From the NCBI GenBank assembly GCA_017634275.1, contig JAGBNQ010000035.1, positions 1 to 38,774 on the forward strand: 38,774 nucleotides of DNA, read 5' to 3'. This stretch comes from Ruminococcus sp. Its GTDB lineage: Bacteria; Bacillota; Clostridia; Oscillospirales; Ruminococcaceae. Below are positions 29,384 to 35,345 of this stretch, one piece after another. The notes below the pieces were generated by a model, which saw nothing but the letters and a program-made list of their open reading frames with translations, did not search any database and was not told the DNA's origin. Position 1 is the first letter of the stretch. Each line of letters opens with the position of its first letter. The translations under genes and the position numbers were made by a program.

Positions 29384-30286
29384 TTATTTATCTAAGGAAA
29401 GCGTAACATCATCGGAAACGAAGATGATAGCAGGGATACTCGGGCAGAATGTCGATTTAGTCACCTTTCTGTCCATATCCACCGACTTGAACACAAGCCC
29501 TCTGACTATCTTGTTAAACTCTGTATTATCCATATTCTCGACGTTTATAAGCACTCTTACAGTTGCCTCCCCCTTAGAAAAGGGCTGTATCTCGGTATGT
29601 TTGTTGTCATTACCGACATAAACTATCCTGTCGGGACTTGTTGACTGGCTCGCCATAAGCTCAAACTGCGGTATCCTTGTCGCAAAGACCGACATATTTA
29701 CAACGTGGAACTTTATCTCTACCACTCTGTAATTCTCTGCCTTTTCCGACTTGAGCGCCTGATTATCCTCCATAGAGTACTTGTCCGCATACTCTACCCT
29801 GAGTTCGTTTATGCCCTTATAAGCGAAAATGTTCTCGTCCGTAACTCTTGAATCAACAACGTCTGTCACAAACACGGGCGGCACGAACAGCGCAAAGGAA
29901 ACAAGCACTGCAAGCACCACCGCGCAGGTTATAACAAGCCTTTTTACGGAAATGAATTTTCCGCCAATCTTGACCTTAGCGCCCGGCTCGTTGTCTATGG
30001 TTCTTTTTGTCACCATAGGCTTTTTGGCGATGCTCTTCATAAAGTCCTGCTCTTCCTCACGCTTTGCACGCGCACGGGTCTTTGAGAGGTTCTCAACCTT
30101 TTCTATGCCGTCATATTTTGAAGATGCATTGGCAAAGTTACTGCTTGCAAGCATATTTACCTGGTTTGACATCTGCCCCGAGCTTTTGCCAAAGCTTTCT
30201 CCTATTATCTGCTTGCCGAGTTCCTGGTTTACGTCCATTTCCTCAGGCAATTCAAGTCCGCCCATCGAAGGGTTTCTTTTAGCCAT
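29384..30286 (-). CDS. Unknown bitopic membrane protein in the dcw cluster
   Basis: A 300-residue protein I do not recognise. Residues 1-115 are cytosolic, polar and partly Lys/Arg-rich (KTRARAKREEEQDF); one transmembrane helix lies at about 117-139 (RLVITCAVVLAVLVSFALFV); the rest (140-300) is a predicted extracytoplasmic beta-rich domain. This topology is that of divisome proteins such as FtsQ. The ATG follows AAGGAGAATAACAT, and that site overlaps the murG stop, so the two are translationally coupled. The position between murG and murA suggests a role in wall synthesis or division (inference by context only). Confidence 0.8.
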   Translation of the reverse strand: MAKRNPSMGGLELPEEMDVNQELGKQIIGESFGKSSGQMSNQVNMLASSNFANASSKYDGIEKVENLSKTRARAKREEEQDFMKSIAKKPMVTKRTIDNEPGAKVKIGGKFISVKRLVITCAVVLAVLVSFALFVPPVFVTDVVDSRVTDENIFAYKGINELRVEYADKYSMEDNQALKSEKAENYRVVEIKFHVVNMSVFATRIPQFELMASQSTSPDRIVYVGNDNKHTEIQPFSKGEATVRVLINVENMDNTEFNKIVRGLVFKSVDMDRKVTKSTFCPSIPAIIFVSDDVTLSLDK

Positions 30287-31520: not shown

Positions 31521-32786
31521 TTATTTTCTCTTCTTGACCCTTGCCTGACGGGAAACGTTTAGCAAAATGCCTATCTCGCCCAAGGTGATGATGAGCGCCG
31601 TTCCGCCGTAGCTGAAAAACGGCAGCGAGATACCCGTGTTCGGGAAGGCGTTGCAGGCGACCATCATATTTAGCAGCGCCTGAGAGCCTATCTGAATAGT
31701 AATGCCTGCGGCAAGGAGCATTCCGAACCTGTCCTTAGCGCGCGAGGCTATATAAAAGCCGTGAACTATCAAAAGCGAGAAAAGCAGTATAACGACTATC
31801 GCGCCGATAAGGCCGAATTCCTCGCAGACTATTGCGAATACAAAGTCATTCTGTGATTCGGAGAGGTAGAGGTATTTCTGCCTCGATTCACCAAAGCCGA
31901 GCCCGAAGATGCCGCCCGAGCCTATAGCCAAAAGCGCATTATAGGTCTGGTGGGTCTTGCCCTGAATGTCTGACATGGGGTCTTTCCATGCCGTAAATCT
32001 GTCCTCGATATAGGCAAAGCTGCCCTTTGCAAAATACAGCACCAGCGCCGCGACAGATGCAAGCGCCACAAGAATGACTATAAACTTAACAAACGTCTTT
32101 AACGGCACACCGCTTACAAACATAAGCGAAAGCCCTAAAATGGATATAAGCATTACCGCCGAGATATGCCTTTGCAGCGCCAAAAGCCCTGCCGCAATGC
32201 CGAGGTAGGCGGCATATGGAATGGTAGAATATTTCCAGCTTGCATATTTAGGGAAGTTTACAGCGCCCGTATACGCAAAAACTATTATCAGCGAAATTTT
32301 AAGCAGCTCCGACGGCTGAAAGCGGAATGACCCTATTACTATCCACCTTGATGCGTCCGCCGTTGCCGTACCTGCTATCGCCGTATAAAGCGTCAGACCG
32401 CACATCAGGAAGAAAAAGCCGAAGGCTATCTTAGTGTTTAAGTAGTTATGGTAGTCAACTATCGATGCGAACCACATGACCCCCAGCCCTATAGCCGCAA
32501 AGAGCGCCTGCTTTTTTATGTAGAAATAGCCGTCGCCCTCCTCTAAGCCCCATGCATAGCTTGCAGAGAACATCATTATAAGCCCAAACCCCAGCAAGAC
32601 AAGCACAAGTATCAGAAACGGCCTATCGACCTTTGAAAACACGGGTTTGATCGAGAAAACGTTTCTCTCCGTCGCAATATCGCGCGACGAGCCCAGCTCT
32701 ATCTCAGTATGCTTTTTGACGCTAAAGCCCTTTCTCTCATAGACAAGGCCTCCGTCACGCATACGTTTTATCATCTTTGGCGCCAA
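31521..32786 (-). CDS. ftsW: SEDS peptidoglycan glycosyltransferase FtsW
   Basis: Polytopic SEDS-family polymerase that extends glycan strands from lipid II together with a class B PBP. About ten membrane segments are visible. Family patterns: GLIMMFSASYAWG in the first helix, SRWIVIGSFRFQPSELLKIS, GSGGIFGLGFGESRQKYLYL, SQNDFVFAIVCEEFGLIGA and the final GISLPFFSYGGTALI. The start is uncertain: TTG at 32786 lies eight bases after AAAGGTGGTG, a near-consensus site, while ATGs at 32774 and 32762 have none. It follows the MraY-like gene where murD is usually found between the two. Confidence 0.92.
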   Translation of the reverse strand: MAPKMIKRMRDGGLVYERKGFSVKKHTEIELGSSRDIATERNVFSIKPVFSKVDRPFLILVLVLLGFGLIMMFSASYAWGLEEGDGYFYIKKQALFAAIGLGVMWFASIVDYHNYLNTKIAFGFFFLMCGLTLYTAIAGTATADASRWIVIGSFRFQPSELLKISLIIVFAYTGAVNFPKYASWKYSTIPYAAYLGIAAGLLALQRHISAVMLISILGLSLMFVSGVPLKTFVKFIVILVALASVAALVLYFAKGSFAYIEDRFTAWKDPMSDIQGKTHQTYNALLAIGSGGIFGLGFGESRQKYLYLSESQNDFVFAIVCEEFGLIGAIVVILLFSLLIVHGFYIASRAKDRFGMLLAAGITIQIGSQALLNMMVACNAFPNTGISLPFFSYGGTALIITLGEIGILLNVSRQARVKKRK

Positions 32787-32805
32787 ACAAAGCACACCAC
32801 CTTTC

Positions 32806-32862
32806 CAATGCACAATTCACAATGCACAATGCACAATTAGTAATTCACAATTTGGGATATAT
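32806..32862. repeat. Short direct repeats (TGCACAATTCACAA type)
   Basis: Five imperfect copies of TGCACAAT/TTCACAAT stand in tandem between the MraY-like gene and ftsW, with a single related TGCACAAT near 31455. The function is unknown; they may be slippage products. Confidence 0.5.
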
Positions 32863-32959: not shown

Positions 32960-33994
32960 TTAAGAAAGGATATTCTCGCTGTATATCCAGAATGCCGCGG
33001 CGGCTGCTATGCCTGCGAGCGTTATCGGCAGCGACCAGAGGATCACCTTAACATCGCTTACACCCTTTTGCTTAAGGTGGGCGTGAAGGCTGCCGCCGAG
33101 GAGCAGCACGCGCTTTGTCCTTTTATAATGGACAAAACGGATAAATGCGGCTAATATATCTATTATAGCAGAAGTAGGAAGAAATATCAATAGCAAATCT
33201 TTTCCCGATATTATACACATTGCACAAATAAGCGCGCCGCAAAGCAGCTGGCCGCTCTCACCGAAATAGACTTTTGCAGGGTAAAAGCTCCAGATAAGCA
33301 GCCCTGCCGCCGAGCCTGCGGTGATATAGCCGAGAAGTGAGCATTCCCCCGAGCCGACTGCGGCAAAAAAGAGGGAAATGAGCATTACGCTTACCCCCAT
33401 AAGTCCCTCGCAGCAGTATTTTTCCTCGCCGCCGAAGGTATCATGAACGCGGAAGGCGTAGATGCAAAGTGTCATCAAAAGCCCGAAAACGGGGTAGTAG
33501 AAAGCCCCAAAGCTTATAAAGCCGAGCCTGAAGGGGAGCAGCACCTCGCCCGTTAAGCCGCTTATAAGCCTTAAGCTTACAAGAAAGCAGACGCAAAGCC
33601 CCCAGAGAAACAGAAACAAAAGCGACCCCTTAATCCCTGCAGGGCGGTTGAGCTTTTGCTTGATATAGTCCTGCAAAAAGCCTGCCAAAAAGGCTAAAAA
33701 CGCGAAAATGAGCGCCGAGGTCAGCCTTTTTACATCGTCATTGCCGAATGAGCTTTTAGCGCAAAGCAAAGCTATGCTGCCCACACCGCCTGCGGCAATG
33801 CCTATCATCATCACAGCGCCGCCAAAGCGCGGCGAGGAATCGTCATTTCTGAACCTGTCGCCGATATGCGGCTCATAAATTCCCGTTTCGTAAAAGCGGA
33901 ATATCGGAATAAGCGCTATCGCCGCCGTCAGGCCAAGCACAAAGCAAAGCCCCATCAAAGCGCCGCCGTAGGGGGTAAGCTCGTTATAGCGCAT
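32960..33994 (-). CDS. MraY-like membrane protein with altered catalytic motifs
   Basis: A polytopic protein of 344 residues in the place of mraY, the enzyme that makes lipid I from UDP-MurNAc-pentapeptide. Sequence order matches MraY/WecA: a loop with SSPRFGGA (53-60), then AGFLQDYIKQK where MraY has GxxDDxxK (Q108-D109), EGLMG (196-200) where it has NxxDGLDG, FGESGQL (244-250) where it has GDxGSL, and LHAHLKQ (303-309) where it has the HHHxE motif. Three essential Asp/His positions are therefore changed. It may be a pseudoenzyme or a diverged transferase. The ATG at 33994 overlaps murF by 11 bases; TTG at 34009 is also possible. Strong hydrophobic segments fit about ten helices. Confidence 0.8.
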   Translation of the reverse strand: MRYNELTPYGGALMGLCFVLGLTAAIALIPIFRFYETGIYEPHIGDRFRNDDSSPRFGGAVMMIGIAAGGVGSIALLCAKSSFGNDDVKRLTSALIFAFLAFLAGFLQDYIKQKLNRPAGIKGSLLFLFLWGLCVCFLVSLRLISGLTGEVLLPFRLGFISFGAFYYPVFGLLMTLCIYAFRVHDTFGGEEKYCCEGLMGVSVMLISLFFAAVGSGECSLLGYITAGSAAGLLIWSFYPAKVYFGESGQLLCGALICAMCIISGKDLLLIFLPTSAIIDILAAFIRFVHYKRTKRVLLLGGSLHAHLKQKGVSDVKVILWSLPITLAGIAAAAAFWIYSENILS

Positions 33995-35345
33995 CGACAA
34001 CACTTTCAAGTTTCATTCCGCGGCTGCCCTTGAACCACACCGCGTCGCCCTCTTTTACCTCCGCCTTAAGAGCAGCGCTTAGCTCCTCTCTCGTATCAAA
34101 GTGAAATGCCTTAGCCTTATCAAAGCCCTTTTTGACTGCGCCCTCTATATAGAACTTTGCGTTCTCGCCGTAGCAGTAGATAAGGTCAACAGTCGATGAG
34201 CCGAGCGCCTCGCCTACGTTTTTATGCAGCTTTGGTGCCATTTTGCCCATTTCAAGCATATCGGCAACAACGGCTATCCTTCTGCCGCCCTCGCCCACCT
34301 CGACCTGCGAGAGAACGGAAATACCTGCCTTCATCGAATCAGGTGCCGCATTATAGCAATCTATTATCAATGTTATGCCGTCACGCTTTTGAATATTCTG
34401 CCTCATGCCGTCAGGCTTGAAAGCGGCTATGCCCTTTGCGATATCCTCGGGCGCCATTCCAAGCTCTAAGCCGACTGCGAATGCCGCGAGCGCGTTTTTG
34501 ATATTATGCTCGCCGTAGCAGTTTACAGTCACGGGCGTTTTGCCTGCCCTGCTGTTTATGTCAAGAGTAATAACTCCCCCGTTTGTCTTTATATTTGATG
34601 CATAAACATCACAGCTTTTCTTTGAAAGAGAATAGCTTATAACTCTTCTTCCGCCGCGCGGAGTAACGTTTGCAAGCAGCTTGTCATCGCCGTTTATCAC
34701 AAGCGGTGCCTCGTAGGAGCAGCCGTCAAGGATCTCCATTTTAGCCTTTAATATACCCTCCTGCGTGCCTAAGTTCTCGATATGCGAAAAGCCTATATTG
34801 GTTATCACCGCGATAGTCGGGCAGGCGCAGAGGGAAAGCCTTGATATCTCCCCGAAATGGTTCATTCCCATTTCTATTACCGCTGCCTGAGTGGTTTCGT
34901 CCATTCCGAAAAGGGTAAGGGGCAGGCCTATCTCGTTATTGTGGTTGCCCTCGGTCTTAAGCGTTTTAAAGCCCTGCGAAAGCACGCTCGCTATCATTTC
35001 CTTAGTCGATGTCTTGCCGACACTTCCCGTAACGCCCACAAGCGGAATTTTAAACTTGTTTCTGTAGTAGCTTGCAAGGTTTAAAAGCGCGCGCCTTGTT
35101 GAGTCAACGACTATGCACTTTGCGTTTTCTATCGGGCGCTCGGTTATAACAGCCTCAGCCCCCAGCTCGGTAGCCTTCGCCGCGAAATCGTGCCCGTCAA
35201 AGTTCTCGCCCTTAAGCGCTATGAAAACGCAGCCTGCCTTTATAGCCCTTGTATCCGTACAAACGCTTGAAACCTCGATATCCGACGGAAAACCAAAGCT
35301 GCCGTCCACTACCTCTACTATTTCCTTTAATGTCATATTAACCAT
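33984..35345 (-). CDS. murF: UDP-MurNAc-tripeptide:D-Ala-D-Ala ligase
   Basis: Adds D-Ala-D-Ala to the UDP-MurNAc tripeptide in the cytosol. The 453-residue product has the Mur-ligase N domain (VCTDTRAIKAGCVFIALKGENFDGHDF), the ATP loop GVTGSVGKTSTKEM, the central EMGMNHFGEISRL motif and the C domain starting with KPDGMRQN. The ATG at 35345 follows GAAGGACGG at a rather long spacing; ATG three codons later is an alternative. It overlaps the MraY-like gene and lies 103 bases after murE. Confidence 0.95.
   Translation of the reverse strand: MVNMTLKEIVEVVDGSFGFPSDIEVSSVCTDTRAIKAGCVFIALKGENFDGHDFAAKATELGAEAVITERPIENAKCIVVDSTRRALLNLASYYRNKFKIPLVGVTGSVGKTSTKEMIASVLSQGFKTLKTEGNHNNEIGLPLTLFGMDETTQAAVIEMGMNHFGEISRLSLCACPTIAVITNIGFSHIENLGTQEGILKAKMEILDGCSYEAPLVINGDDKLLANVTPRGGRRVISYSLSKKSCDVYASNIKTNGGVITLDINSRAGKTPVTVNCYGEHNIKNALAAFAVGLELGMAPEDIAKGIAAFKPDGMRQNIQKRDGITLIIDCYNAAPDSMKAGISVLSQVEVGEGGRRIAVVADMLEMGKMAPKLHKNVGEALGSSTVDLIYCYGENAKFYIEGAVKKGFDKAKAFHFDTREELSAALKAEVKEGDAVWFKGSRGMKLESVVDAL

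Follow-up and report, generated by a model that had tools for sequence, protein, structure and literature searches.

A retained MraY homologue with altered catalytic motifs between murF and ftsW in a Ruminococcus genome, probably displaced as catalyst by a second MraY-like enzyme

MraY, an antibiotic target, is usually regarded as essential, nearly invariant and present as a single enzyme. Residues D117, D118 and D265 (numbering here and throughout is that of Aa MraY) are described as critical (PMC6606608, PMC5039524), T75 and H325 are inhibitor contacts (PMC6606608), and MraY dimers form in a manner coupled to C55-P binding at their interface (PMC9046198). Planctopirus limnophila is reported to have two mraY genes, and single deletion of either mraY1 or mraY2 is viable (PMC10632474). 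The genome analyzed here likewise has two MraY-like genes, a likeness in gene number; the accessible part of the P. limnophila report makes no mention of lost catalytic motifs (PMC10632474). A literature search that left most subscription papers outside its reach turned up neither a pseudo-MraY nor a case of MraY being displaced. The protein described below would be a pseudoenzyme derived from MraY, an enzyme for which no such case was found in print.

The present study analyzes a window, meaning the whole stretch of 38,774 nucleotides of contig JAGBNQ010000035.1 from a Ruminococcus sp. assembly (GCA_017634275.1), in which the gene order is murE-murF-X-ftsW-murG and X is the gene of interest. 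An intact MraY-like gene overlapping murF had been described at this place in an earlier note, and both its coordinates and an overlap of 11 bases were confirmed (Table 1). An alternative TTG start at 34009 is unlikely, as there are in-frame stops directly before the ATG at 33994 in four of six genus relatives. The murF genes of relatives matched the family model TIGR01143; the downstream neighbor we take to be FtsW-like from its position. Two further observations concern the surroundings. A tandem ATTGTGCATTGTG-like repeat, with three overlapping matches against 0.07 expected, lies at 32811-32837, between the MraY homologue and the ftsW-like gene or at the start of the latter, and a 300-residue gene without a Pfam match over cut-off lies at 29384-30286, between murG and murA, a location where other genomes have homologues of it.

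Table 1. Coordinates of the features discussed (positions in the window unless another contig is named).
Feature	Position	Strand	Basis
pseudo-mraY, 344-residue MraY homologue with altered catalytic motifs	32960..33994	-	ORF and family matches
11 bases shared by the end of murF and the start of pseudo-mraY (ATG at 33994)	33984..33994	-	overlapping ATG common to six genus relatives
murF, upstream neighbor	33984..35345	-	ORF; MurF reference for gene order
FtsW-like gene, downstream neighbor, start codon provisional	31521..32813	-	ORF, gene order
TPTMGG loop, here SPRFGG	33818..33835	-	T75 position Arg in 7/7
LQDYIK: D117 to Gln; D118 and Lys retained	33659..33676	-	alignment
DGLDG loop rewritten, VHDTFGGEEKYCCEGLMG, with insert	33395..33448	-	alignment
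GESGQ: Mg-binding D265 to Glu (Gln in G004); Ser to Gln	33248..33262	-	alignment
LHAH: middle His, H325, to Ala	33077..33088	-	alignment
MraY2, 318 residues	G000:C31:8120-9073 (L001, L034, L153)		PF00953 search

The window protein belongs to Pfam PF00953 (Glycos_transf_4; 35.3 bits, cut-off 27) and scores far below the cut-off of the NCBIfam mraY model (TIGR00445, EC 2.7.8.13; 64 bits, cut-off 192.05). All solved relatives that it matched were MraY structures, representing five distinct sequences, the best being 5jnq (E 1e-13). With the solved enzymes (5jnq, 4j72 and related entries, 8g01/8g02) it shares homology over the C-terminal two thirds, length, the place between murF and ftsW (hereafter the slot), several structural Gly and Pro residues and the D118, Lys121, H324 and H326 positions; unlike them, it is changed at six positions (D117, N187, N190, D265, S268 and H325) and in the DGLDG loop. 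Proteins of the WecA/TagO type belong to the same Pfam family, and 12 of these, found with a query of the second enzyme described below and named by their motifs, retain DD, NxxNxxDGLDG and the HxHHxL loop, unlike the window protein, whose profile matches them at E 9e-8 vs 3e-37 for MraY. The latter match and the conserved slot support orthology to the canonical MraY of sister genera. An AlphaFold model built from a two-row alignment reached a mean pLDDT of 38, too low for use.

The motifs were read from alignments by MAFFT and by HMMER against the solved enzyme 5jnq. The earlier note had read DDxxK as QDYIK, GDxGS as GESGQ and HHH as HAH, and these readings stand; its reading of DGLDG as EGLMG was in the wrong register, since in both alignments E196 pairs with the second Asp of the motif (D196) and the changed loop lies before it, although the motif is lost either way. 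The insert in this loop occurs at the same place in slot proteins of three other genera, g60, g90 and g96. Relatives were then compared, as the earlier note had suggested, in a genus sample of seven genomes, three of them at least 90% complete, and the gene was intact in all seven, the other six copies being 51–80% identical to that of the window. The positions of D117, N187, N190, D265, S268 and H325 were changed in every one. The three catalytic aspartates (D117, D118, D265) read Gln, Asp and either Glu (six) or Gln (one), S268 was Gln in 7/7, and the middle histidine of loop E was Ala in five and Ser in two, giving HAH or HSH for HHH. Retained in 7/7 were D118, Lys121, H324 and H326, with QDYxK in all and GESGQ in six. 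Sequencing error was rejected on the ground that the same positions are changed in all seven genomes. Stops reported inside the slot genes of G001, G003, G005 and G006 fall within the stretch overlapping murF, ahead of the true ATG; stops were likewise reported for G012, G051 and G056, and the overlap explanation covers the four genus members. The window protein is thus a homologue without needed catalytic residues, where the residue roles are those given in PMC6606608 and PMC5039524, and because the positions of D117 and of the Mg-ligand D265 are changed it would not be expected to make lipid I.

The earlier note had proposed looking for a second mraY. In the window's genome, which is 58.65% complete, searching with PF00953 returned two proteins, the window protein and one other, of 318 residues on contig C31, which we label MraY2. 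The latter retains DD, NVTNCSDGIDG and GDAGS and has HDH for HHH; its score with the mraY model is 88.4 bits, below the cut-off of 192.05. In its loop E, TPIHDHMRKNQGWED, it is closer to MraY (SPIHHHFEMCGWSE) than to the TagO/WecA-type DRxHLHHRLIDM, and the MraY2 profile matches the MraY set at E 8e-26 and the TagO/WecA-type set at E 2e-17. Across the family, the DDD aspartates and DGxDG were retained in 54/54 aligned MraY2 proteins (the carrier G278 was left out of the alignment), with HDH in 53 and HDQ in one. These 54 and nine from two other families formed one clade apart from canonical MraY and TagO/WecA-type proteins (support 100), in a tree made by a quick method, used for its topology, for which the tool warned that long branches meet. 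MraY2 was found in six of the seven genus genomes, the miss being G002, which is 72% complete. The T75 position is Arg in 50/54 family MraY2 proteins and the H325 position Asp in 54/54, and insensitivity to inhibitors of MraY would be a guess from these two altered contact positions. The copy in the window's genome has the same two residues, Arg and Asp, and lies divergent to a VanY-type carboxypeptidase gene; its neighbors there (this gene, an LPG-synthase-like membrane protein and a CDP-alcohol transferase) gave no clear functional lead.

Several patterns may be identified from the distribution of the two enzymes. There were 53 of 297 family genomes, in 17 of 126 genera, with MraY2 (E <=1e-30), in addition to G001 and G003 of the window's genus, and in a class sample 15/391 genomes (E <=1e-25), of which 12 lay outside the family, ten in f66/g208 and two in f51. 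The mraY model was over cut-off in 237/297 family genomes, comprising 228 of 244 without MraY2 vs 9 of 53 with it (Fisher p 4e-30 over the 297 genomes, kinship ignored). The slot was read in 56 genomes (55 MraY2 carriers and G002) searched with the mraY model, yielding 47 slot proteins, eight slots without a gene and one off the contig. Ten of the 47 proteins were canonical or nearly so (g19, g67 and g94) and 37, from 12 genera, were degenerate, so that among MraY2 carriers the slot is canonical in three genera, degenerate in 12 and deleted in two; the slot protein of G286 was cut by a contig end and showed only its later motifs. The D265 position was changed in 37/37 degenerate proteins, to Glu, Gln, Ser, Arg, Lys, Asn, Ala, His or Phe with none common to all, and D117 and D118 both survive in some (all of g60, g106 and g150); in g134 and g150, whose copies have diverged furthest, it is uncertain which residues pair at individual sites. 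As controls, slot proteins from MraY2-less genomes retained the DDD aspartates and DGxDG in 23/23 cases, these being the best-scoring 23 of 51 matched genomes outside the genus, and so did 21 family controls, eight of them not in the first set, with the third His replaced by Ser in a few proteins of both sets.

Some carriers, in g19 and g67 (slot loci L138-L145), keep both enzymes in apparently intact form. In g19 the slot copy changes faster than MraY2, with 63% vs 79% identity between G024 and G233 and 71% vs 88% between G024 and G286, the 71% coming from a partial gene, while in g67 it does not (81% vs 79% and 82% vs 80%). One g67 genome, G072, has a near-canonical slot gene (L142, 3078-4100) beside an intact MraY2, with GNLGS for GDxGS and changes only at D265 and N187 among 13 tabulated sites; this is possibly a first step of decay, or else a sequence difference.

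At the other extreme, in all eight genomes of g88 and g99 (96–99% complete) there was nothing between murF and ftsW, and MraY2 was the only PF00953 match over cut-off, with three weak sub-threshold matches in three genomes. The same was seen in f66/g208, which belongs to another family of the same class: ten genomes carried MraY2, the slot was empty in 8/8 loci, and MraY2 was the only match to the mraY model at E 0.1 in 10/10 genomes. Because homologues of MurE, MurF, FtsW and MurG remain in all 16 loci with an empty slot, MraY2 is the likely lipid I synthase, a candidate by elimination that probably makes lipid I in the window's genome as well. An opposite explanation could be that the window protein is a working MraY whose changes are tolerated and that MraY2 is a WecA/TagO-like enzyme serving another polymer. 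The window gene does occupy the normal place of mraY, and MraY2 lacks HHH, falls below the mraY cut-off and has a profile that matches both enzyme sets; but this would not account for the eight near-complete mraY-less genomes with murE, murF, ftsW and murG in which MraY2 is the sole member over cut-off, for the ten f66/g208 genomes, or for a loop E nearer to that of MraY, and we regard it as very improbable.

In f51, G457 showed MraY2 only and G520 has both. Subtraction leaves 16 genomes of the family with neither MraY2 nor MraY over cut-off (G007, G013, G069, G095, G100, G106, G125, G128, G133, G149, G150, G175, G197, G229, G238 and G276). Completeness is given for seven of these, six at 64–87% and G095, of genus g90, at 99%. 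In G095, which had neither MraY2 at E 1e-30 nor MraY over cut-off, 651 kb of about 2.3 Mb held no MraY, MraY2, murE, murF, ftsW or murG, with positive controls that worked. The three other sampled g90 members all carry MraY2, and G095 fits none of the slot and MraY2 states described above.

The window gene is not dead: it is under purifying selection, free of stops, and better conserved in its former active-site loops than elsewhere. In four close genus pairs (dS 0.75–1.06) dN/dS of the slot gene was 0.174, 0.126, 0.118 and 0.156, compared with 0.037–0.059 for MurF in the same pairs, i.e. 2.6–3.9 times the MurF value; in the three of these pairs with MraY2, that gene gave 0.055–0.123. Other degenerate-slot pairs with estimable dS gave 0.11–0.44, and in one g106 pair dN/dS of MurF and FtsW was also high (0.40 and 0.48). 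These values come from Biopython YN00 with fall-back to NG86, the method being unreported per pair and several pairs having no dS. In a neutral simulation run to 0.75 changes per site, 0/500 copies were free of stops and identity fell to 25%, vs 80% observed for the pair G000-G002 at dS 0.75. In the former active-site loops 57% of 79 positions were invariant in the genus vs 29% of 265 others, and 0/343 circular shifts were as strong; the limits of the loops were set after the genus sequences had been seen, and the count covers genus slot proteins, not canonical MraY.

Two alternatives bear on these patterns. First, the slot gene could be a functionless relict in slow decay, spared for a time by its position among essential genes that it overlaps and by translational coupling to murF. 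Several observations are consistent with this, namely the missing slot gene in g88, g99 and f66/g208, a dN/dS above that of MurF and, where comparable, of MraY2, the very divergent copies in g134 and g150, and G072, which looks like a gene caught early; but all 37 degenerate copies are single open frames of 300–360 residues, dN/dS in the close genus pairs is 0.12–0.17, and the loops are more conserved than the remainder, so that we consider decay unlikely. Secondly, the earlier note had offered a transferase with changed chemistry, i.e. a protein that would go on loading a polyprenyl phosphate with a phospho-sugar or some other group, using a different substrate or metal site. The strong conservation of loop residues in the genus would suit such an enzyme, as would the retention of D118, Lys121, H324 and H326 and of QDYxK and GESGQ; the Mg-binding Asp position is, however, changed in 37/37 degenerate copies without a common replacement, which makes this alternative improbable.

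It is of interest how often catalysis was lost. On a murE/F/ftsW/murG tree (85 rows, quick method, with G457 and G520 excluded for too little sequence) the degenerate genera were scattered among MraY2-less sisters, and loss of slot catalysis took at least seven changes (84 rows, G241 left out), in a count that entered G002 as an MraY2 genome though MraY2 was unfound there and entered 21 MraY2-less rows as canonical, a state then checked in the family controls above. Among seven independent pairs on well-supported branches, loss went with MraY2 in a mean of 5.7, contrary to it in 0, and there was no difference in 1.3 (sign test, median p 0.03, range 0.016–0.125). The tree of the slot proteins themselves (67 rows, G286 left out) placed all 37 degenerate rows on one side of a branch with support 98, which, read plainly, would mean one origin of degeneracy, not seven. 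We read the grouping as long-branch attraction: when degenerate groups were added singly to the canonical rows, five of seven (g106, g104, g29, g134 and g96) took positions next to or close to their organismal sisters and two (g142 and g31) did not. These were quick trees, rooted on G016 for reading, in which the branch lengths for g104 and g134 hit 10 and so are not true estimates. The g142 group was tried without G278, and two of the four g96 proteins, not the window's genus, stood for the window's clade. The count of seven losses thus depends on both the murE/F/ftsW/murG tree and the long-branch reading of the slot tree.

Taken with these patterns, the window gene likely encodes a pseudo-MraY that is retained without catalysis after displacement by MraY2. 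In this view it is the lineage's original mur-cluster mraY, whose catalytic task would have passed to the distantly related MraY2, while the gene itself persisted for a pseudoenzyme made alongside MurF and FtsW. The window protein may still adopt a membrane fold and bind a ligand or partner on its cytoplasmic face, possibly undecaprenyl phosphate, lipid I, a nucleotide, MraY2, MurG, MurF or FtsW, and so could scaffold or regulate the synthesis of lipid-linked precursors. Because dimerisation of MraY is coupled with C55-P binding (PMC9046198), a catalytically empty MraY could, by analogy, retain its grip on the lipid carrier or on a partner. Of the earlier note's proposal, the alternative put first, a pseudoenzyme taking part in lipid I synthesis, is the favored one, given the second MraY-like gene and purifying selection; the regulatory or scaffold part is inferred, and a binding or scaffold role is a tentative assignment, falling somewhat short of an even call. 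Against the displaced, retained pseudo-MraY, the slot gene is absent in g88, g99 and f66/g208, so MraY2 does not need it there, and the higher dN/dS than MurF and the barely recognizable g134 and g150 copies suit slow decay too. The case of G095, the degenerate copies in which D117 and D118 both survive, and the slot tree read plainly weigh on the same side. It is possible to go further and imagine two-part lipid I synthesis, with catalytic MraY2 paired with non-catalytic MraY as a heterodimer or with that MraY as a lipid-carrier-binding platform for MurF, MurG and FtsW, such that the old enzyme would have become a regulator of its own replacement, while MraY2 may have spread as a target poorly hit by nucleoside antibiotics; the two ideas held jointly are a long shot.

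The finding has several implications for this group of bacteria from gut and rumen. The catalytic role of MraY has seemingly passed to another enzyme across many genera of one family and in one genus of a second, with the old copy often retained in a non-catalytic form. Inferring lipid I synthesis from the mur-cluster gene would name the wrong protein in these bacteria. Finally, slots in which both enzymes look intact, one site is broken, the active site is rebuilt or the gene is deleted make up a natural series that may serve for probing roles of MraY besides catalysis.
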